Shown piece after piece: positions 4,195-39,805 of a DNA stretch of 44,824 nt (within the stretch, counting starts at the first letter, position 1; every line of letters starts with the position of its first letter). Origin of the DNA: Candidatus Woesearchaeota archaeon (GTDB lineage Archaea > Nanobdellota > Nanobdellia > SCGC-AAA011-G17 > UBA489); NCBI GenBank assembly GCA_018302985.1, contig JAGVZA010000006.1, positions 1 to 44,824 of the forward strand, given 5' to 3'. The notes below the pieces were generated by a model. That model made no database searches and was not told where the DNA came from. It worked only from the letters and a program-made list of their open reading frames with translations. Both the position numbers and the translations under genes were made by a program.

Positions 4195-7014
4195 TTATGC
4201 AGTAGCAGTTTCAGAGGTTATCTCTGTACCGCTAACCATGACCTTCATACCAGTAAGTTCATCAACATGTTCATCGTAATTGGATACGATCTTAGCTGCT
4301 GCGCGAGTGTCTGCTGCATCTGTACCAGCTATAAGCATAGCGACATTTTCGCCATTCTCTGCTAGTTGGATGATAGCTTCACCAGCTTTAGCAGTCCATC
4401 CTTGACAGGTTGGGAAACCTGCAATCTTGCTAACTAAATCATTAGCACATGGACCACCTACAAGGATTAAGTTGTAGTCTGTTGCGTCGCTAACTTCTGA
4501 GTCCAACAAATTGTTGAGCTGGATGTCAGCTACAGTACAAACTTCTCCTGCCTTGCCTTTGGTTGTTTTAGTGTCACCCATAGTAACGAAGACATGAGCA
4601 CCACGTTGAACTAACGGATATTCTAAAGTTAAGGTTTCAGAATTGTCTGAGCCTTCTGGGTCTAAGATGTGAATCTTAATACCATAATCCGTCATTCCAT
4701 AGAGGTTGTTGTCATCGTCATCTGGTTCATTAACGCCCTTGTTAAACGTTGTTGTGTTTATTCCAAGACTGTTGTCAGTTCTGGTGTTCAACGTAAAGAA
4801 GAGTTCATCATTTGTTGATGAAGTTGCTCCACTGCTAGGTGCTGCATTTTCATCAAACTCTTCTGATAGAGTAGTCATGTTGAAAATAACTCCACCAATG
4901 CTAGGGGTTAACTCTGAGTCGGTGTTGTTAATTAAATCACCAGTATTACTCCAAGTCTGAGCTCCAGATCCTGCAGTAAAGGTGTAATGACCACCGTCAC
5001 TTTGAGTAGCTTCACCAAGATCGACAATTCCTCCACCGTTAACAGTTACGCGGATTTCTGTTCTATCAACGTCACCGTCTCCATCCATATCAATGGCAAG
5101 AGGATTGTCATTACCAGCTGCAGTCACGTTTGCTACGTAGGCAATATAAGTATTACCTCCGAAAATCAATCGTGCCTTACCGAGAATAGCACCTGAGGTT
5201 GCATCATGGATGGTCTCATAGGTAAATTCTTTGGTACCGCTGCCTTCTTCATCGAAACTTAGAGTACTATCTGAAGTATCGATAGAGTTGTAACGAACAA
5301 TGTGTGTTTTAGATGTATCATCTAATCCACCGAAGATTTGATCTTCAAATCCGCCTTGTCGTGGACTTGCGATGGCATCTCCTGTTGTTGCTCGAAGGTT
5401 CTTATTGGTGTCACTTAAAACAAAGTAATCTAAGATACCAACATTAAACTCTGTGTAGTTATGTTCAGCACTGTTTACTGGGTTAGAACCAGTTGTGTGT
5501 AAGTTTCTACCTTCAGTGTAGTTACCTTCGATAAAGACTAAATCTTTGTCGTTGTCACCAAATTTAAAGGTACCGCCTTCGTTAGTCACATAAGGAATCT
5601 GGTAAACAGTTCCTGCTGTGTTTTCAAACTCTAAGGTGTATTCATCGTCACCACGAGGGTCTAGCTTAACCATACTGACACCAGTATCGTCTAATCCTTC
5701 GTAACGGATGTCCCATGTTGTTCCCAACATACCTTGAGGTTCATCTAAGAACTCTCTAACACCGTGTCCAGGAGCGACGTATAAGTCCTTGTAACCAGGT
5801 AGGGCATCAGCTGTAAGTCTGTAACGAATTGAGGTAATCTCAAATTTATCAGTTACAGTGTTTAAAGCATTACCTCTGATTTGAACGTAAGCATCTTCGA
5901 TAGATTCTTCATCAATCTCGACGCCTTGTTCGTAACCTAAATTGGTAATGTCATCATTTTCAGAATTTGTCCAGTTGTCATCTTTGAATTGCACTTTGGT
6001 TGCACCAATGTATAATTCAACGATATCACCAGAACCAGCTTCACCAGCTTCGTTTAAGATGATGTCTGAGATACCGATTAAAGTACCATCTTTTAAGATT
6101 TCAGTTTCACCATCAGTCATTTGACTGGTAACTTCGCCGTTGATGTTAAAGGTAACAGTAGCTGGAGTTGAGTCTTCAATGATCATAACTTCAACTTTGT
6201 ACTCTTTGCCATTAACATTGTAGGTTTTTTCTTCACCTTCTTCGAGAATATCGAAGACTGAACCACCTAACATTTCTAAAGTAACAGAAGGACTAGCGCT
6301 TGCTGTGTTAATGTTAGTGTCTACAATTGTGTAAGTTGTTCCTAACATAACTAATTCTTCATCTTCAAAGTCGTCTAATTTCTTAGAGACTACTTCAGAT
6401 TCCAAGCCATCTTCAAATTCAACTTCATACTCAAAGAAGGATGTGTTTGCTGCTGAACCTTCAGGAATAAACATCCAGTCACCAACTTCATCAGTTGGAG
6501 CGTCATTTACAGTGAAGTTCACGACAGGTGCACTTGGTAAAGTGTTAGTACCTGCAGAATTTCTTTGTCTGAAGCGTAAGTACTGATTGAATTCAGTAGT
6601 TCCTTCATTAGTTGTGATAATTCCACCTTTTAATCCATCAAGCTCTAAGTCTGTGATAGATTCTTGGACATCACCAATATTTTCGTTAAGTTCTAAAAGA
6701 TCAGATCCATCTCCAATCTCAAAGCTGTCTCCTGATACGGAAACACCGCTGCCGCCTGCTCTTCCAGGGACACAAACTTTACTGTCAAATTGTAGTTGTC
6801 TTGCAATGTCTACGCTTCCTAATGTATCAGAAGCTGCTGCATTTTGACCAACAACAATTGCTGTATTAGGGTTAAATTTACCCTTGTCAACGAATGGAGC
6901 TGGGTATTGATTTAAATCTGCTGCTGCTAAAGCTCCCATTATGGTTGCTCCAGTCATAGCTACTCCAGCACCGATTGCTGCCATCTTTTTGATAGCTGTT
7001 CTTAATCTTTGCAT
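4195..7014 (-). CDS. S-layer protein
   Basis: 939 aa. The N-terminus MQRLRTAIKKMAAIGAGVAM is a signal peptide typical of archaeal S-layer proteins of the S_layer_N/S_layer_C type. It is followed by the characteristic block ending FNPNTAIVVGQNAAASDTLG. The C-terminal part (about residues 830-939) contains LILVGGPCAND and MLIAGTDAADTRAAA, matching the second family domain. The long middle is acidic and beta-rich, with few Cys. It should form the main paracrystalline cell wall. It has its own promoter, a long leader, a perfect Shine-Dalgarno and a hairpin terminator, consistent with very high expression. Confidence 0.92.
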   Translation of the reverse strand: MQRLRTAIKKMAAIGAGVAMTGATIMGALAAADLNQYPAPFVDKGKFNPNTAIVVGQNAAASDTLGSVDIARQLQFDSKVCVPGRAGGSGVSVSGDSFEIGDGSDLLELNENIGDVQESITDLELDGLKGGIITTNEGTTEFNQYLRFRQRNSAGTNTLPSAPVVNFTVNDAPTDEVGDWMFIPEGSAANTSFFEYEVEFEDGLESEVVSKKLDDFEDEELVMLGTTYTIVDTNINTASASPSVTLEMLGGSVFDILEEGEEKTYNVNGKEYKVEVMIIEDSTPATVTFNINGEVTSQMTDGETEILKDGTLIGISDIILNEAGEAGSGDIVELYIGATKVQFKDDNWTNSENDDITNLGYEQGVEIDEESIEDAYVQIRGNALNTVTDKFEITSIRYRLTADALPGYKDLYVAPGHGVREFLDEPQGMLGTTWDIRYEGLDDTGVSMVKLDPRGDDEYTLEFENTAGTVYQIPYVTNEGGTFKFGDNDKDLVFIEGNYTEGRNLHTTGSNPVNSAEHNYTEFNVGILDYFVLSDTNKNLRATTGDAIASPRQGGFEDQIFGGLDDTSKTHIVRYNSIDTSDSTLSFDEEGSGTKEFTYETIHDATSGAILGKARLIFGGNTYIAYVANVTAAGNDNPLAIDMDGDGDVDRTEIRVTVNGGGIVDLGEATQSDGGHYTFTAGSGAQTWSNTGDLINNTDSELTPSIGGVIFNMTTLSEEFDENAAPSSGATSSTNDELFFTLNTRTDNSLGINTTTFNKGVNEPDDDDNNLYGMTDYGIKIHILDPEGSDNSETLTLEYPLVQRGAHVFVTMGDTKTTKGKAGEVCTVADIQLNNLLDSEVSDATDYNLILVGGPCANDLVSKIAGFPTCQGWTAKAGEAIIQLAENGENVAMLIAGTDAADTRAAAKIVSNYDEHVDELTGMKVMVSGTEITSETATA

Positions 7015-20383: not shown

Positions 20384-21016
20384 TTAAAGCTTTCTATCTC
20401 GTTCTAAGCGCCAAATGCCTACAGGAACAGTATAATGCTCCTTGCGGTGAAAGGATTGTGTCTTCGGAAGAACAAAATTAGCCTTCCAAAAATGAGTTAT
20501 AGTAAAGTTATGATCAGTGGATAAAGAAGTAAGAAATCGTTGACTTTCAACTTTATGAATGGTATAAATAACATTTGCAAGTTGCATGGCTTTTTCTAAA
20601 AAAACTTTGTCAGCATGTTCTTTCTGTACACCAAAAGGAGGATTTTGTAAAACAACATCAACAGCGTGATGAAATGTTTCTAGAGAAGTGTGTAAAAAAG
20701 AAGCTGAAAAAGTTTTACCAGTAGTGGCTTCCAGTGATTGTAAATTCTTTTTTGCTAAAGCTAAAGCCTCTGCATCCATATCTATAAAAAAAACTTGTTT
20801 TGCTCCTAATAATAACGCACCAAGACCTAAAATGCCAGTGCCACAACCAAAATCAGCAATCACTTTGTCATCTATGTCCCCTTGTAATGCAGCATCCCAA
20901 AGCACTTGTGCAGCAAGTTCACTAGGAGTTGCATATTGTTCTAAAGCAGCAGAAGGTTGTACAAAAGTTTGCAAGCGAGAAAGATGAATCGCTAAATCTT
21001 TTTTCTTCAGGGTCAT
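20384..21016 (-). CDS. METTL5-like RNA adenine N6-methyltransferase
   Basis: 210 aa. LQTFVQPSAALEQYATPSELAA is broken by me into its features: the QY-TPSELAA segment typical of METTL5-type enzymes, SAM motif I DFGCGTGILGLGA (about 56-68), acidic FIDMD, and the catalytic LQNPPFGVQ. NPPF marks N6-adenine methylation. Family members modify the small or large rRNA. It overlaps the MBF1 gene by four bases. The RNA target is inferred from the family. Confidence 0.85.
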   Translation of the reverse strand: MTLKKKDLAIHLSRLQTFVQPSAALEQYATPSELAAQVLWDAALQGDIDDKVIADFGCGTGILGLGALLLGAKQVFFIDMDAEALALAKKNLQSLEATTGKTFSASFLHTSLETFHHAVDVVLQNPPFGVQKEHADKVFLEKAMQLANVIYTIHKVESQRFLTSLSTDHNFTITHFWKANFVLPKTQSFHRKEHYTVPVGIWRLERDRKL

Positions 21017-29170: not shown

Positions 29171-29695
29171 ATGAGAAAAGAGTTAGGGAACAAAGGTGCC
29201 ATTGAACTTTCTATGAATACTATAATTATTGTAGTTATAGGCATCACTATTCTAACCTTAGGCTTACGTTGGATCTACGGTATTTTTGGCGGTCTTACAG
29301 AACAAAGTGATAAAATTAAAACATTATCAGAAGATCAGATTACAACCTTATTTGGTGCAAGTGATAAAGCAGTGAATATTCCAACAAGCGTCGTTCGTGT
29401 ACAGCAGGGAAAAGAATACAATCTACGCATCATGATGCGTAATATCGAAGAAGAAGCACATAAATTCAAGTATATAGTAATCGCGGAAGAAGGAAATGCA
29501 GGTGCGAACAGTGTTCGATGGTATAATAAAGAAATCACATTAACATCAGGTCAAGGGTTTGAAGATATTATTACCTTCAATTCGGACAAGTATGCTCTAG
29601 GAACCTATAGATTCAGAGTAATGTTAACTTGCACTGATTGTACACCCCCTCAAGAGGAATCTGCTCCAGTTATTCTAGAAGTCGTTGCGAAATAG
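29171..29695 (+). CDS. Pilin-like protein with an exterior beta domain
   Basis: 174 aa. NKGAIELSMNTIIIVVIGIT is a class III-like signal: Lys-Gly, Glu at a position close to +5, then a hydrophobic helix. The rest (about residues 60-174) is beta-rich, like a small Ig/CARDB-type domain (GKEYNLRIMMRNIEEEA...), with a single CTDC near the end. It is separate from the 7-17 kb surface cluster but shares its membrane signal. Possibly a surface fibre subunit; its gene end overlaps the promoter region of the rqcH operon. Confidence 0.7.
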   Translation: MRKELGNKGAIELSMNTIIIVVIGITILTLGLRWIYGIFGGLTEQSDKIKTLSEDQITTLFGASDKAVNIPTSVVRVQQGKEYNLRIMMRNIEEEAHKFKYIVIAEEGNAGANSVRWYNKEITLTSGQGFEDIITFNSDKYALGTYRFRVMLTCTDCTPPQEESAPVILEVVAK

Positions 29696-29705
29696 CTTTT
29701 TAAAG
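29696..29705 (+). promoter_or_regulatory. TATA box of the rqcH-cysS operon
   Basis: CTTTTTAAAG begins right at the pilin-like stop codon and lies 22-31 bp before the ATG at 29727. This supports 29727 as the start. Confidence 0.6.
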
Positions 29706-29726
29706 GAAGAAATACTGCTGTTAGGT

Positions 29727-30776
29727 ATGATAAGCCTCTCTGCACTCGATATCAAGTTTATAGTCCGTGAACTCAAAGAATTAGAGAATGCTATCGTAGA
29801 GAAGATCTATCAGCCGGCAGAAAAAGAGATAATTATTGGACTACATAGTTCAGGTGCTGGAAAAAAGCTTTTGAGAGTGGTTGCTGGACAAGTAGCTAAC
29901 TTAACCAAAGAGAAAGGAGAAAGTAAAGAAAATCCAAGTGCATTTTGTATGACTTTAAGAAAATATCTCAAGCAAGCTAGAGTCACAAATGTAGCGCAGG
30001 CTGAATTTGAACGCATTATAGAACTAACATTTTCCAATGAATATAGATTAATTCTCGAACTGTTTAGTAAAGGAAATGTAATTTTAATAGATAAAGACGG
30101 AAAAATCACAGCATTATTGGAAAGACAAGAATGGAAACACCGAACCTTAGAAAAAGGTCAAACTTACATCTATCCACCTCCAACCATAAATCCATTTAAA
30201 CTCTCTGAAGAAGAATTTCGCGAGAGATACAATCACAGCGAGAAAGAGTCTGCAGTAAAGATTATTGCTTCTGATTTTGCACTAGGTGGAAAATATGCTG
30301 AAGAAGTATGCGCATTAGCAAAGATAGACAAAAAGACAAGAAGAATTGATTCTATTAAATTATGGAGAATTATTCAAACTTTAGAAAGTAAAAAACTAGA
30401 TCCTAATATAATAGATAAGGGATTAAAAAAGGAAATAAGCCCTATAGAACTCGTTTCTGAAGAAAAGGCAAAAAAACAATATTTCAACACTATGAGTGAA
30501 GCTCTCGAATCCTATGAAAAGAATTTCGGTGAAGAAGTAGTAGAAAAACAAGAAGAAAAGGAGAAATTAGAAGAATTAGCTAAGTTGCAATCAGAGCAGA
30601 TTGAAAACCTTAAGAAAGAAGCAGAAGAATTCAAGAAAATAGGTGATATGATTTATGTTAAATATGCTGAAATAGATAGTCTGATCAAAGAAGTCAGAGA
30701 GAAAAAATGGAAAGTAGAAGATAAAAGAATTATAGAGATGAAAAAAGCTGAAGGAAAAATTGTCATCGAGCTATGA
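29727..30776 (+). CDS. rqcH: RqcH/NEMF N-terminal half (NFACT-N, HhH, first coiled coil)
   Basis: 349 aa from [20 protein letters not shown], the canonical start of NFACT proteins. NFACT-N blocks are visible: [12 protein letters not shown], then [24 protein letters not shown], then GQTYIYPPP. The helix-hairpin-helix-like [17 protein letters not shown] follows, then a charged coiled coil (about 280-340). The usual Asp-Arg pair appears as Glu-Arg in FERIIEL. The chain stops at KIVIEL, where full-length RqcH would continue to its second coil and NFACT-R domain. Those parts are encoded by 32146-32919, beyond cysS. RqcH binds obstructed large subunits and extends stalled chains. Confidence 0.9.
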
Positions 30777-32149
30777 GACTCTTCAACACCTTAACTCGGA
30801 AGAAAGAAGAATTGAAGCCAATCAAAAAAGGGCAAATAGGCTTGTATACTTGTGGTCCTACAGTATATCATTATGCACATATTGGAAATTTACGCACGTA
30901 TATCTTCGAAGATCTCCTAAAAAGAGCTCTAATCTATGATGGACTCAAGGTAAATCATGTCATGAATATTACAGATGTAGGTCATCTAACATCAGATCAA
31001 GACAGTGGCGAAGACAAAATGGAAGTCGGTGCTAAAAGAGAAAATAAAACTGCGTGGGAAATTGCTGAATTCTATACCAAAGCATTCCAAGCAGATATGA
31101 AAAAGCTCAATATGCTTCAGCCTAGCAAATGGTGCAAAGCTACAGACCATATCAAAGAACAAATTGAGTTAATTAAACAATTAGAGAAGAAAGGGTACAC
31201 TTACAAAATTGAAGATGGTATTTATTTTGATACAGGCAAGCTCAAGGACTATGGCAAATTAGCAAGGTTAGATATCAAAGGATTACAAGAAGGTGCTCGT
31301 ATAGATGTTCGTGGTAAAAAAAATAAAACTGACTTTGCTTTATGGAAATTCTCTCCTGATGAAGGAAAAAGGCAGATGGAATGGTCTTCACCTTTTGGAA
31401 AAGGTTTTCCAGGATGGCATCTTGAATGTTCTGCTATGGCACAAAAATATTTAGGCAACCCATTTGATATCCATTGTGGTGGTATAGATCATATTCCAGT
31501 GCATCATACTAATGAAATTGCACAAACTGAAGCAGCTACAGGCAAACCATTAGCAAATATGTGGTTGCATGGAGAATTTTTGATTGATAAAGAAGGAAAA
31601 ATGTCTAAATCAAAGGGAGATATTTTAACATTATCTACAGTAGAAGAAAAAGGATATGATTTACTAGCCTATAGATATCTTTGTCTAACAACACACTATC
31701 GTATGCCTCTCAGTTTTTCATGGGAAGCTTTGGATGGTGCAAAAAACGCATTAAATCATCTAAGAGAAAAAGTACAAAGTCTCACAATAAAAGATAAGAA
31801 AACAAAAAATAGTGAAGTGTATCAAAAAAAGTTCAAAGAAGCAATCAATGATGATCTCAATATGCCAAATGCTTTAGCAACTCTATGGGATGCTCTCAAA
31901 GATAACACTTTAAGTAACGCTGATAAAAAAGAAATAATCCAAGAAGCAGATAAAGTGCTAGGTCTTGATCTTGCCAATAAGCCAAAAACAGAAAAAATAC
32001 CTCTTGAAGTCATACAATGGGCAAAAGAAAGAGAAGTTGCTCGAAAAGAAAAAGACTGGAAAAAATCAGACGAAGCCAGAGAAAAAATAAAGCAAGCAGG
32101 ATATTCCATCGAAGATAGTGAACAAGGATTCAAGATCAAAAAACAATGA
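30773..32149 (+). CDS. cysS: Cysteinyl-tRNA synthetase
   Basis: 458 aa class I synthetase. HIGN (36-39) after CGPTVYHYA, zinc ligands including C27, the [14 protein letters not shown] and [12 protein letters not shown] segments, and KMSKS (276-280) are all present. The C-terminal anticodon-binding region ends [15 protein letters not shown]. Usual length; nothing degenerate. Both ends overlap the flanking rqcH fragments by four bases (ATGA), so it is translated as part of the rqcH-N/cysS/rqcH-C chain. Confidence 0.96.
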
Positions 32150-32919
32150 AAATCAGTCTAGATATTTACAAATCTGTACAAGATAATGCAGCTTATTACT
32201 ATGAGCGTGGTAAGCGTTCCAAGAGAAAGATAGACGGAGCAATCAGAGCTTATCATGAAACACTAAAGAAAATAGAAAATGTCGAATTAAAAAAACAGAA
32301 AAAAGTGTATAAAGAAGAAAGAAAAAAGCATTGGTTCGAAAAATTCCGCTGGTATCTATCTTCAGAAGGACGTTTAGTAATAGGAGGTCGTGATGCAACT
32401 ACTAATGATATCCTCATTAAAAAATATTTAGAGCCAAAAGATATAGTATTCCACACGCAGTTAAAAGGTTCCCCATTCGTAGTTGTTAAAACTGAAGGTG
32501 CAAAGCTCACAGTACAAGAAAAAGAAGAAGCAGCTATCTTCTGTGCATCAAATTCAAAGCAATGGTCTGCACAAATTAGTCTTGCTGACGTCTATTATAT
32601 TAAACCAGATCAAGTAAAGAAAGAGTTTGGTCTTCCTAAAGGCTCATTCATGATTTATGGGGAAAGAAACTATATGAAAGCCCCCTTGGAGTTAGCAATA
32701 GGAATAACAAAAGATAATTTAGTAATGTGTGGTCCTTTAACAGCTATCAAAACACAATGTAAACATATCTTATCAGTAAGGCAGGGTTCTATGAAGAAAA
32801 GTGATGTTGCTAAAAAAGTGCGTTACTTTATACAACAAAAAGAAAAAGTAGATGTAGATCTCGATGATATCATGCAAGCCTTACCCCCTGGCGATTGTGA
32901 TCTTAAAGAAGTGCAATGA
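32146..32919 (+). CDS. rqcH: RqcH/NEMF C-terminal half (second coiled coil, NFACT-R)
   Basis: 257 aa. It begins with [20 protein letters not shown], the segment that follows the first coil in full-length NFACT proteins. A basic coiled coil and the NFACT-R core follow: [19 protein letters not shown], then [19 protein letters not shown]. The archaeal C-terminal region ends LPPGDCD. NFACT-R contacts rRNA and peptidyl-tRNA. With the 349-aa N-half it sums to about 606 aa, near the length of one RqcH, with no domain lost. ATGA overlaps on both sides. Confidence 0.9.
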
Positions 32920-35425: not shown

Positions 35426-35455
35426 GATAAGTAAAATATATCTATTAAGTTGTAT

Positions 35456-35968
35456 ATGAAATTATTGGTTAAAAAATTATGGTTTCCTCACAGTGTTGAT
35501 GATGTAGTAGAAGCTCTTTTTAGAATACCTCAAATGCAAGAACGATTTGATGAGGGGTATAAGTATGATGGGGAAATGAGGCCTAGAGAAATAAAGATAT
35601 GTTCTGGTTATTGGCCAGCTGATAAAATTATGGCAAGATTATCCAATCAAAAAGATAGAGTCTATGTTATTTTAACCTCTGTAGACTTGCGGGGAGATGT
35701 TGGAAGAATTCATGGAAAGGGACGTGAGGGTATTGCAATCGCTTCAAGTAATGGTTATACAGGAGGTCGTGGATTTGTTACAGATGATGTTGGATTTAAT
35801 GCTATGGCATTCGGTGAGATAGGACATGCATTAGGGATCGAGCATCACAAATTTGATTCAGCAAATCCATGTGAGATGTCACACAACCAGTATCCAGGTC
35901 CTGACTGGCAAACCTTAGATGAAATTCGTTTCTGTGATGAGTGTTATACAAAGATTTCTCGTAGATAA
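35456..35968 (+). CDS. Archaemetzincin-like protein lacking the first zinc ligand
   Basis: 170 aa from MKLLVKKLWF. The C-terminal half matches archaemetzincins: GEIGHALGIEH where HExxHxxGxxH is expected, followed by C139-E-M141 and C160-D-E-C163. The first His is Gly120 and the Cys after the third His is also His (131). Glu121, His124 and His130 remain. Proteolysis is therefore doubtful. The start at 35456 is preferred to a TTG two codons earlier. It follows L31e by 30 bp in the same direction. Confidence 0.75.
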   Translation: MKLLVKKLWFPHSVDDVVEALFRIPQMQERFDEGYKYDGEMRPREIKICSGYWPADKIMARLSNQKDRVYVILTSVDLRGDVGRIHGKGREGIAIASSNGYTGGRGFVTDDVGFNAMAFGEIGHALGIEHHKFDSANPCEMSHNQYPGPDWQTLDEIRFCDECYTKISRR

Positions 35969-36665: not shown

Positions 36666-37649
36666 ATGGAAGAAAAACTGCCTTTTGAGAGAGAAGAAAG
36701 AAAAATAGTAGTAAAGAAAGAAGCATCAACAAACCCGGAGTGGGGCTGCAAACCTGAAGATCGACCTGTAGAGGAATTACTCAAATATGGTATTATCAAT
36801 CTCAATAAACCTTCAGGTCCAACGTCACATCAAGTAGCTGATTATGTACAAAAAATTCTCAATCTCAAAAAATCTGGACATTCTGGAACACTTGATCCAA
36901 AAGTAACCGGTGTTTTACCAATAGCCATTGACGATGCAACACGTATAGTGCAAGCTTTATTGCCTGCAGGAAAAGAATATATCGCTTTAATGCGGATCCA
37001 TGCAGAAGTTCCAGAAAAAGAAGTTCTCGCAGTGTTTAAACAATTCCAGGGAAAGATCATGCAATTACCTCCAGTCAGAAGTGCAGTCAAAAGACAGCTA
37101 AGGGAGAGAGAAGTCTATTACATGAATATTATTGATATGGAAGGTAACTTCGTCTTGTTCAAAGTAGGATGTGAAGCTGGTACCTATATCAGAAAACTCA
37201 TTCATGATATGGGAAGACAGCTCAAAGTAGGTGCGCATATGGCACAGTTAATCAGGACTAAAGCTGGTCCATTTACAGATCAAACTTGGGTAACCTTACA
37301 GGACGTCACAGATGCTTACGCATTTTGGAAGCAAGGAAGTGAAAAGGAGATTCGTAAAGTAATCCAACCTTTTGAAAAAGCAGTAGATCATGTAAAAAAA
37401 GTCTGGATATTTGATAATGCAGTCAATAATGTATGTCATGGTTCTTCATTAGGAGTCCAAGGAATTAGTAAACTCCATAGTAACATTGAAGCAGGTGACC
37501 AAATAGCCATTATGACTCTCAAAGACGAGTTAGTAGCCCTCTCTAAAGCAGCTCTCAATGCACAAGCCATGCAGACCAAAGACAAAGGTCTTGCAGCCAT
37601 TACAGAAAAGGTATTTTTACCAAGAAATATTTATACTACTAATAAGTAA
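36666..37649 (+). CDS. cbf5: Pseudouridine synthase Cbf5
   Basis: 327 aa. NLNKPSGPTSHQV and GHSGTLDPKVTG (catalytic Asp77) are the TruB/Cbf5 core, followed by GTYIRKLIHDMG. The C-terminal PUA domain is at about 245-327. Archaeal Cbf5 works in H/ACA RNPs with Nop10, Gar1 and L7Ae on rRNA and can modify tRNA position 55. The following RNA-binding genes (radical SAM-TRAM, THUMP) extend the RNA-modification theme. Confidence 0.95.
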   Translation: MEEKLPFEREERKIVVKKEASTNPEWGCKPEDRPVEELLKYGIINLNKPSGPTSHQVADYVQKILNLKKSGHSGTLDPKVTGVLPIAIDDATRIVQALLPAGKEYIALMRIHAEVPEKEVLAVFKQFQGKIMQLPPVRSAVKRQLREREVYYMNIIDMEGNFVLFKVGCEAGTYIRKLIHDMGRQLKVGAHMAQLIRTKAGPFTDQTWVTLQDVTDAYAFWKQGSEKEIRKVIQPFEKAVDHVKKVWIFDNAVNNVCHGSSLGVQGISKLHSNIEAGDQIAIMTLKDELVALSKAALNAQAMQTKDKGLAAITEKVFLPRNIYTTNK

Positions 37650-37664
37650 CTACAAATAGAAAGA

Positions 37665-37672
37665 TTTATATA
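37665..37672 (+). promoter_or_regulatory. TATA box of the zinc-ribbon/radical SAM/THUMP genes
   Basis: TTTATATA, 22-29 bp before the ATG at 37694. It gives the three-gene set its own promoter apart from cbf5. AAAAGGATAAAAG just before the ATG may be the ribosome site. Confidence 0.6.
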
Positions 37673-37693
37673 ATTAAAAAAGGATAAAAGTAA

Positions 37694-37945
37694 ATGAAAA
37701 ATGTTGAAGAAATAGTGCATGTGGAGTTCACGCCAGACCCACATATTGCGGTAGACTGCTGCCAAGGTAATGATGGAAAACGTGCTTTTTATCAAAATCA
37801 AGTATTAGTAGAACGAAGAGTAGAGAGTGAAGGCAAAGTTCCATTTGAATGTCCTAGTTGTGGAACAAAATATGAAATGCTTAAAGCACATATAGATAAA
37901 GCACAAACACGAGTTCTTAGTACTTATGCAACTGGTAAAGATTAA
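37694..37945 (+). CDS. Small zinc-ribbon-like protein
   Basis: 83 aa. Cys occur as CC near residue 22 and as CPSCG near 56, too few for a standard zinc ribbon unless the CC pair completes it. Several strands are followed by a helix. No family recognised. Its end overlaps the radical SAM gene by 20 bases, which makes co-translation likely and suggests a functional partner. Confidence 0.6.
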   Translation: MKNVEEIVHVEFTPDPHIAVDCCQGNDGKRAFYQNQVLVERRVESEGKVPFECPSCGTKYEMLKAHIDKAQTRVLSTYATGKD

Positions 37946-38909
37946 TCAAGAGTCAGGCATTCCTTTAATTGGTCATATAGCCTTCGGCATAGTAGTTCGT
38001 CCAAATTCAAATCTTATTCAAGTACGAGCAACCACCATTTGTAATATGAATTGTATTTTTTGTTCTACAGATGCAGGCCCTTATTCAAAGTCACATCAAA
38101 ATCATTATGTCGTTGACCCTTATTATTTAACAGAATGGATAAAAGAAATAGTAGCTTTGAAAGGAGAAACACACATCAACATAGATTCTGTAGGAGAGCC
38201 AACTGCTTATCAAGAGTTAGAAACTTTAATTACAGAAATAAGAAAGATTCCTCAAATTTCATTTATATCTATGCAAACCAATGGTACTCTCTTGACCAAA
38301 GAAAAAATTCTAGCATTAGAAAAAGCAGGTTTAAATCGCATCCATCTCAGTGTTCATTCCTTTAGCCCCATTCTAAGCAAAGAGCTTTTTGGAAGTGATA
38401 AATATGATATCCCTACTATAGAAGAAATAATTAAAGTAATAAAGAAAACTAAGATAGAATTAATGTTTACTCCCGTCTGGTTGCCAGGTATCAATGACGA
38501 AGACATTAAAATTATTATCCAAAGAGGAAAAGAGCTCAACATCCCTATAGCTATACAAAAATATGAAGAATACAAGTACAGTAGAAAAGTAAAGAAAATA
38601 AAAAAAGAAAATTATTACAAATTTTACAAGCAATTAAGAGAATGGGAAAAAGAATTTACTATTAAATTAATCTATAAGGCAGAAGATCTAAATGTGACAC
38701 GAGCAACAAATCTTCCTTTAGTGTTTAAAATTGGAGAAAGGATAAATGCAGATATCAAAGCTCCAGGTTGGATGGAAGGACAGATGATTGCAGTAGCAAA
38801 AAAGAGGTGTATTACCGTCGTGAAGTGTGATAGAAAAGTAGGAGACAAAGTAAATATCAAGATCATTGAGAACAAAAGTAATATTTATCTCGCAGAGATG
38901 ACTAGATGA
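37926..38909 (+). CDS. Radical SAM protein with C-terminal TRAM-like domain
   Basis: 327 aa. CNMNCIFC (C39, C43, C46) is the CxxxCxxC cluster motif. Glycine-rich and beta-strand motifs of the radical SAM barrel follow (NIDSVGEPT, MQTNGTLL, IHLSVHS). The last 60 residues, starting near GERINADIKAPGW, are a beta barrel like the TRAM RNA-binding domain. MiaB-type enzymes also end in TRAM but carry an N-terminal UPF0004 domain, absent here. I infer an RNA-modifying enzyme; the product is unknown. Overlaps the next gene by four bases. Confidence 0.82.
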   Translation: MQLVKINQESGIPLIGHIAFGIVVRPNSNLIQVRATTICNMNCIFCSTDAGPYSKSHQNHYVVDPYYLTEWIKEIVALKGETHINIDSVGEPTAYQELETLITEIRKIPQISFISMQTNGTLLTKEKILALEKAGLNRIHLSVHSFSPILSKELFGSDKYDIPTIEEIIKVIKKTKIELMFTPVWLPGINDEDIKIIIQRGKELNIPIAIQKYEEYKYSRKVKKIKKENYYKFYKQLREWEKEFTIKLIYKAEDLNVTRATNLPLVFKIGERINADIKAPGWMEGQMIAVAKKRCITVVKCDRKVGDKVNIKIIENKSNIYLAEMTR

Positions 38910-39805
38910 CTAAAAAATACATAGGAATAGTTATTGAAGGCATAGAAGACATTGCAGCTAAAGAAGTCCAAGGAAAAAGAAAAGAAAAAGGCAGAATTTT
39001 ATTTGAAGAGCTAAAAAAAGAATACGCAACAGTCGATACAGTATACGAAGTAGAAGAAGAATATACTTTTACAGATCAAGAAGATCTTCTAGAACAAATA
39101 CAAAAGAAAAAATGGGTTATTGAAGAGCCATTTCGAGTAACTTGTAAACGCCAAGGAGATCATCTCTTCAATGCTAATGATATAGAAAAAGAAGTAGGCG
39201 CTCTAATTTATGAACAAGGACATAAGGTAAGTCTCAAAGAACCAAAAACAATTCTATTTGTAGATATCCAAGACAATAAGTGTATGTTAGGAAAATTAAT
39301 ACAAGACAATCTGGATAAAAGAGCCTATAGAGTAAGAAGAAATAACACAGGTATTAGTGCTTCCCTCGCTGCAGCAGTTCTAAGAGATGCTAATTTCCCA
39401 GAAGAAGAAACTCTGTTCGATCCTTATAGCAAAGATGGAGTGCTAGTTATCGAAGCAAAAAAGCTAGGAAGTAAACAAGTGTATGCTAATGACTTTAATG
39501 AAAATAATTTACGCAATGCAAAAATCAATGCTAAAATGGCTAAAATAAGTATAGAATGGCAATCACCTGTAACTGTAGACAACATCATAACAAATCTGTG
39601 GGTGCCTGCTAGAATAGAAAAAAGTAAAGAGTATGCTATACAATTCTTAGAAGAAAGTAAAAACAGAGTAAAAAAAAGACTTATACTAATCACTAATTGG
39701 AAAGAACTAGAAAAAGAAATTCCTAAGGGATGGATAATGGAAAAGAAAAGAATAGTAAATCGAGTAGAAGTAAATTATGTTTTCTATTTAAAGAGAAGCA
39801 GCTAA
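38906..39805 (+). CDS. THUMP-domain protein with an apparently inactive methyltransferase domain
   Basis: 299 aa. A THUMP-like domain (about 50-135, including FRVTCKRQGDHLFNANDIEK) precedes a Rossmann domain like that of Trm11/Trm14/TrmN. Its SAM motif, normally DPxCGSGT, is DPYSKDGVL (172-180), and the catalytic NPPY is NLWV (230-233). Both functional sites are thus lost while the fold-defining surroundings (LAAAVLRDANF, VYANDFNENNLRNAK) remain. Likely an RNA-binding non-enzyme. ATGA overlap with the radical SAM gene suggests a complex in which it delivers tRNA. Confidence 0.78.
   Translation: MTKKYIGIVIEGIEDIAAKEVQGKRKEKGRILFEELKKEYATVDTVYEVEEEYTFTDQEDLLEQIQKKKWVIEEPFRVTCKRQGDHLFNANDIEKEVGALIYEQGHKVSLKEPKTILFVDIQDNKCMLGKLIQDNLDKRAYRVRRNNTGISASLAAAVLRDANFPEEETLFDPYSKDGVLVIEAKKLGSKQVYANDFNENNLRNAKINAKMAKISIEWQSPVTVDNIITNLWVPARIEKSKEYAIQFLEESKNRVKKRLILITNWKELEKEIPKGWIMEKKRIVNRVEVNYVFYLKRSS

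Follow-up and report, generated by a model that had tools for sequence, protein, structure and literature searches.

A radical SAM gene and a THUMP gene form a linked module across an order of archaea, and the presence of this pair in many small, uncultured Woesearchaeota suggests that the two proteins jointly make an undescribed tRNA modification. The window (the whole stretch of 44,824 nt that was analysed) comes from a 1.04 Mb genome that is 88% complete and carries the pair downstream of cbf5 (Table 1). The sequence-only reading had described three overlapping ORFs under one TATA box after cbf5, and their coordinates are as it gave them. The first ORF overlaps the second by 20 nt, and the second overlaps the third by 4 nt. 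A TATA-like stretch, ATTTATATAATT, is present about 25 nt 5' of the first ATG, with the consensus judged by eye. A scan for sigma-70-type promoters and an Rfam scan gave no match beyond chance.

Table 1. Features of the module locus, in window positions
Feature	Position	Strand	Evidence
cbf5 (pseudouridine synthase), upstream cluster neighbour	36666..37649	+	Pfam, neighbourhood scan
TATA-like stretch 5' of the three overlapping ORFs	37664..37693	+	consensus by eye
Orphan ORF of 83 aa, one CPSC knuckle	37694..37945	+	found in 1 of 103 genomes; coding-like codon composition
Radical SAM enzyme, 327 aa	37926..38909	+	Pfam/NCBIfam, order-wide alignment, AlphaFold2 model, fold matches, cysteine columns
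THUMP pseudo-methyltransferase, 299 aa	38906..39805	+	Pfam, Trm14 fold, motifs in 59 orthologues, dN/dS

Strong orthologues of the radical SAM gene occur in 59 of the 103 genomes of the order and THUMP orthologues in 67; 53 genomes have both (Fisher p 9e-10, uncorrected for kinship). Co-occurrence also holds in the class subset G103–G170 (p 0.001, uncorrected), the only genomes for which class-level THUMP absences were used, because beyond them the THUMP matches become suspiciously sparse. Wherever both genes lie on the same contig, the THUMP gene is found downstream of the radical SAM gene at a distance of at most 2.9 kb (38/38), and the strand is the same in 37 of these 38 genomes. The two genes touch or are no more than 14 nt apart in 15 genomes, and they are on different contigs in 15 genomes. 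A fusion of the two was not seen among the ORF lengths listed. The association is not a matter of chance, given that the two genes neighbour each other throughout an order.

The first ORF does not share this conservation. It had been taken for a zinc-ribbon protein and a third member of the module, but it has a single CPSC knuckle, and all its Pfam matches fall under the cut-off. No relatives were found in the other 102 genomes of the order, and the ORF is missing from all 39 fetched neighbourhoods. We therefore rejected it as a module member, so that of the proposed three-gene set the radical SAM–THUMP pair stands and the zinc ribbon does not. The codon-position composition of the ORF is coding-like and resembles that of the neighbouring genes, so it is probably a true but orphan gene.

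Linkage of this kind could also arise if the two genes were mere neighbours with separate functions in a translation and RNA cluster that includes cbf5, acylphosphatase and pyrimidine genes. Archaeal gene clusters often combine unrelated functions, and the pair is interrupted in about 23 loci by other genes (membrane-protein, acylphosphatase or pyrimidine genes); the acylphosphatase is Pfam-confirmed in one locus. Moreover, 14 genomes of the order have a THUMP gene without the radical SAM gene, and methanogens have the radical SAM gene without THUMP. However, complete linkage in a constant order over many genera, with touching ORFs in 15 genomes, would be unusual for unrelated neighbours, and the co-occurrence is significant too. 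We consider it rather unlikely that the two genes are mere neighbours. That they form one RNA-modification unit, with a THUMP subunit for tRNA delivery and a radical SAM catalyst, seems to us close to an even bet. In favour of such a unit, cbf5, itself an RNA-modification gene, belongs to the same cluster: 26 of the 39 fetched loci of the order have it, on the same strand in every case, and it lies directly upstream in nine. In two other loci, L116 and L168, a METTL5-like methyltransferase gene comes after the radical SAM gene. The fold of the radical SAM protein also matches those of the RNA-binding enzymes MiaB and MtaB.

The radical SAM protein matches PF04055 with 90.4 bits, which is above the Pfam cut-off. 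It carries its cysteines as C39xxxC43xxC46 in a MoaA-like core that forms a partial TIM barrel. The AlphaFold2 model (pLDDT 95.8) gave full-length fold matches, TRAM included, to MiaB, MtaB and RimO, and matches of the core to MoaA and NifB. The C-terminal TRAM-like barrel (about residues 268–323) sits at the expected place in the predicted structure, with a profile match just below the cut-off (20.1 vs 21 bits, E 5.8e-4). In MiaB, MtaB and RimO, a radical SAM core is followed by TRAM, but these enzymes have an N-terminal UPF0004 domain with its cluster cysteines, for which the window protein gave no Pfam match (PF00919). The combination of CxxxCxxC, a TRAM-like barrel and no UPF0004 domain is thus as first described. 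The missing UPF0004 domain led us to reject an identity as methylthiotransferase.

C39, C43 and C46 are invariant in 34 sequences from the order and 56 from outside it, and no other cysteine is. A class A radical methylase (RlmN/Cfr) is therefore unsupported, since the two extra catalytic cysteines of that class are not seen. Cys301, which lies in the TRAM region (window positions ~38826-38828), is conserved in 30 of the 34 and 46 of the 56 sequences, and it might be catalytic.

A match to a characterised enzyme with another substrate would have spoken against the proposed role, but no characterised radical SAM family in NCBIfam was matched above its own cut-off. It is nevertheless conceivable that the enzyme acts on a protein or a small molecule, as MoaA or the maturases do, and that its TRAM domain binds nucleic acid incidentally; the best sequence profiles are in fact those of MoaA and maturases. 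The core is common to MoaA (E 2e-19; PDB 1tv7), but the second-cluster cysteines of MoaA are not found in the window protein, which carries a TRAM-like barrel. All profiles score far under their equivalog cut-offs (69.8 vs 284 bits for MoaA), and an identity as MoaA was rejected on this score and on the missing cysteines. SPASM or auxiliary-cluster cysteines are likewise absent, and the neighbouring genes belong to RNA modification and translation. A protein or small-molecule substrate therefore appears improbable.

Relatives of the radical SAM protein reach well beyond the order. There are 453 of them in the named collection, and the best 80 of these 453 include proteins from Methanoregula, Methanothrix, Thermofilum and Aenigmatarchaeota. 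In other Nanoarchaeota the protein is a 400-aa form that carries an additional domain at its N terminus. The family presumably corresponds to COG2100, a group of uncharacterised archaeal radical SAM proteins. A literature search on COG2100 and on the combination of radical SAM with THUMP found nothing. A THUMP orthologue is missing in the methanogens that carry the radical SAM gene, so the THUMP partnership is best seen as a lineage-specific addition. Across archaea the family is common, in most cases without this partner, which therefore cannot be essential to its chemistry everywhere; no characterised member was found.

The partner protein matches both THUMP and UPF0020 above their cut-offs (PF02926, 42.1 vs 20.6 bits; UPF0020, 35.5 vs 22.3 bits), and it consists of an N-terminal ferredoxin-like domain (NFLD), THUMP and a Rossmann domain. 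Its AlphaFold2 model (pLDDT 95.8) has the Trm14 fold (TM 0.89 to 3tm5). The NFLD-THUMP-Rossmann arrangement is shared with the tRNA m2G6 methyltransferase Trm14/TrmN (3tm5, 3tlj, 3tma), with a sequence profile E of 1.6e-43. However, the protein reaches only 63.7 bits against the NCBIfam Trm14 cut-off of 280. While the Trm14-type paralogue of the order has DPMCGSG and NPPY, the window protein has DPYSKDG(VL) as motif I and NLWV as motif IV, both non-canonical. Motifs, Pfam matches and fold thus agree with the claim of a THUMP protein with an altered methyltransferase fold.

The alteration is conserved throughout the order. Among the 59 THUMP orthologues there is none in which the two canonical motifs occur together, so that a homologue with intact SAM and NPPY motifs in the same context, which would have contradicted the first reading, was not found. 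The strict test for motifs I and IV was passed by five of the six active-type paralogues of the order (Trm14 and TrmG10 types), and the sixth misses it by one residue (CGTA). In the orthologues, K or R takes the place of the first motif I glycine in 48 of 59, and the position after it is occupied by Asp in 44 of 59. Motif IV is canonical-like in 6/59, never together with a canonical motif I; some orthologues retain NPPF/NPPW (family f20) or PPY there. Strand beta2 ends in an acidic residue that contacts the SAM ribose and is mostly retained. Pairwise dN/dS of the THUMP gene is 0.10–0.26 in the three measurable pairs. Judging from these sequences, the THUMP protein is a retained pseudo-methyltransferase and not the product of a decaying gene, because the K/R form of motif I is conserved under strong purifying selection and erosion conserves no new motif. 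The retained acidic residue leaves room for a ligand, and the protein may bind SAM or another molecule.

The same residues can be read in another way, namely that methyltransferase activity persists in the THUMP protein despite a divergent active site and that the two enzymes work sequentially or in parallel on the same tRNA. Nearly all orthologues retain the beta2-end acidic residue, a few have a near-canonical motif IV, and the K/R-D-G motif is conserved as though functional. However, not one orthologue combines the two canonical motifs and the window protein has neither, and from what is known of the family a Lys or Arg at the first glycine should crowd the SAM site. Retained methyltransferase activity is, in our estimate, unlikely.

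Loss of the motif is less clearly tied to the presence of the radical SAM gene. Among THUMP sequences from genomes of the order without that gene, six retain the motif I glycine, and the altered motif is seen in eight, most of which come from incomplete genomes. The six glycine-keepers form a single clade and count as one case; the correlation is therefore not independently replicated, and an independent-pairs test across the tree was not significant. In other orders, the THUMP homologues have lost the aromatic residue of NPPY and are variable in motif I. Most genomes sampled there also carry the radical SAM gene, but not adjacent to the THUMP homologue, and some degenerate THUMP proteins come from genomes without it. 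Such cases, together with the methanogens, indicate that each part is able to exist alone. Of the coupling proposed from the sequence, the linked module is confirmed, but strict mutual dependence of the two proteins is not.

Starting from the module linkage, motif loss, predicted folds and purifying selection observed in this analysis, we infer a physical complex, a tRNA substrate and the position and chemistry of a modification. In the proposed mechanism, the THUMP protein would descend from a Trm14-type m2G methyltransferase that lost its activity. Its THUMP domain would grip the 3'-CCA end of the tRNA, as family knowledge leads one to expect, and its inert Rossmann domain could provide a ruler or a docking surface. 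Catalysis would fall to the radical SAM–TRAM protein. By analogy with its family, a single [4Fe-4S] cluster would generate a 5'-deoxyadenosyl radical while TRAM would bind RNA. The radical would attack a nucleotide C-H; the acceptor stem or the 8–12 region is its probable location, since most THUMP enzymes work there. In its full form, with a dedicated THUMP pseudo-methyltransferase that feeds tRNA to a radical SAM enzyme of an archaea-wide family, which would then modify a carbon close to the acceptor stem or the tRNA core in a way not yet described, and hence a sixth THUMP-dependent kind of modification, this proposal is possible but on balance doubtful.

An inactive THUMP adaptor has a precedent in Tan1/THUMPD1, the partner that presents tRNA to the catalytic acetyltransferase Kre33/NAT10 for formation of ac4C12 (PMC9957541). 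It resembles the window THUMP protein, as proposed, in being a non-catalytic tRNA presenter, but its partner is an acetyltransferase and not a radical SAM enzyme. Tan1 is not known to have a pseudo-methyltransferase domain. A split system with a radical SAM subunit is known from ArcS-RaSEA, an archaeal two-protein tRNA pathway (PMC11298593). There the partner is of the PUA/TGT type, whereas in the window it is a THUMP protein, and no TGT was found in the window's genome or family. The earlier interpretation is right in outline, but in view of these precedents it overstated its case in calling the architecture unrecognised.

One could also imagine that the pair serves a known tRNA pathway (archaeosine, wyosine or ms2A) by means of a non-orthologous enzyme, as radical SAM enzymes are known to participate in all three. 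We regard this as extremely unlikely. The radical SAM protein has no UPF0004 or wyosine domain. TGT is not found in the window's family or in most of the order, with none in the 88% complete window genome (G000) or its relatives G092–G095 and G099, and its occurrence is not associated with that of the radical SAM gene (19/35 vs 40/68, p 0.68). Because TGT was not found and is not associated with the module, archaeosine is excluded as the product in the window's lineage.

THUMP enzymes have been sorted into five activities, none of them radical-based, and those known mostly modify tRNA positions 6 to 12 (PMC9957541). A radical SAM partner, if true, would add a sixth. It would also open a first way into the function of a radical SAM–TRAM family that is retained in very different archaea, even in reduced DPANN genomes stripped of nearly all other radical SAM genes. 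For example, the single-contig genome G078 (0.74 Mb) has three radical SAM genes in total, one of which is that of the module. The lineages of the methanogen members have culturable relatives, so the RNA substrate of the family is directly testable.

Some further features of the loci and of the window were noted. The genes that most often separate the radical SAM gene from the THUMP gene encode an acylphosphatase and a small hydrophobic membrane protein; they lie on the same strand and occur in many genomes, among them L069, L071, L074, L079, L087 and L090. In L116 (1156-1791) and in L168 from Aenigmatarchaeota (1454-2077), a METTL5-like methyltransferase with an intact NPPF directly follows the radical SAM gene. 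The window has a METTL5-like methyltransferase of its own at 20384-21016, with intact DFGCGTG and NPPFG. An NFACT protein (Rqc2/Tae2/RqcH family) is apparently split into an NFACT-N/middle part (29685-30776) and an NFACT-R RNA-binding domain (32146-32919); between the two parts lies a cysteinyl-tRNA synthetase, named from sequence. The ORF at 35450-35968 encodes a 172-aa protein with a zinc-protease-like (archaemetzincin-like) HALGIEHH motif and a CDEC pair but no Pfam match, and positions 4195-7014 encode an S-layer-type protein (PF05124).
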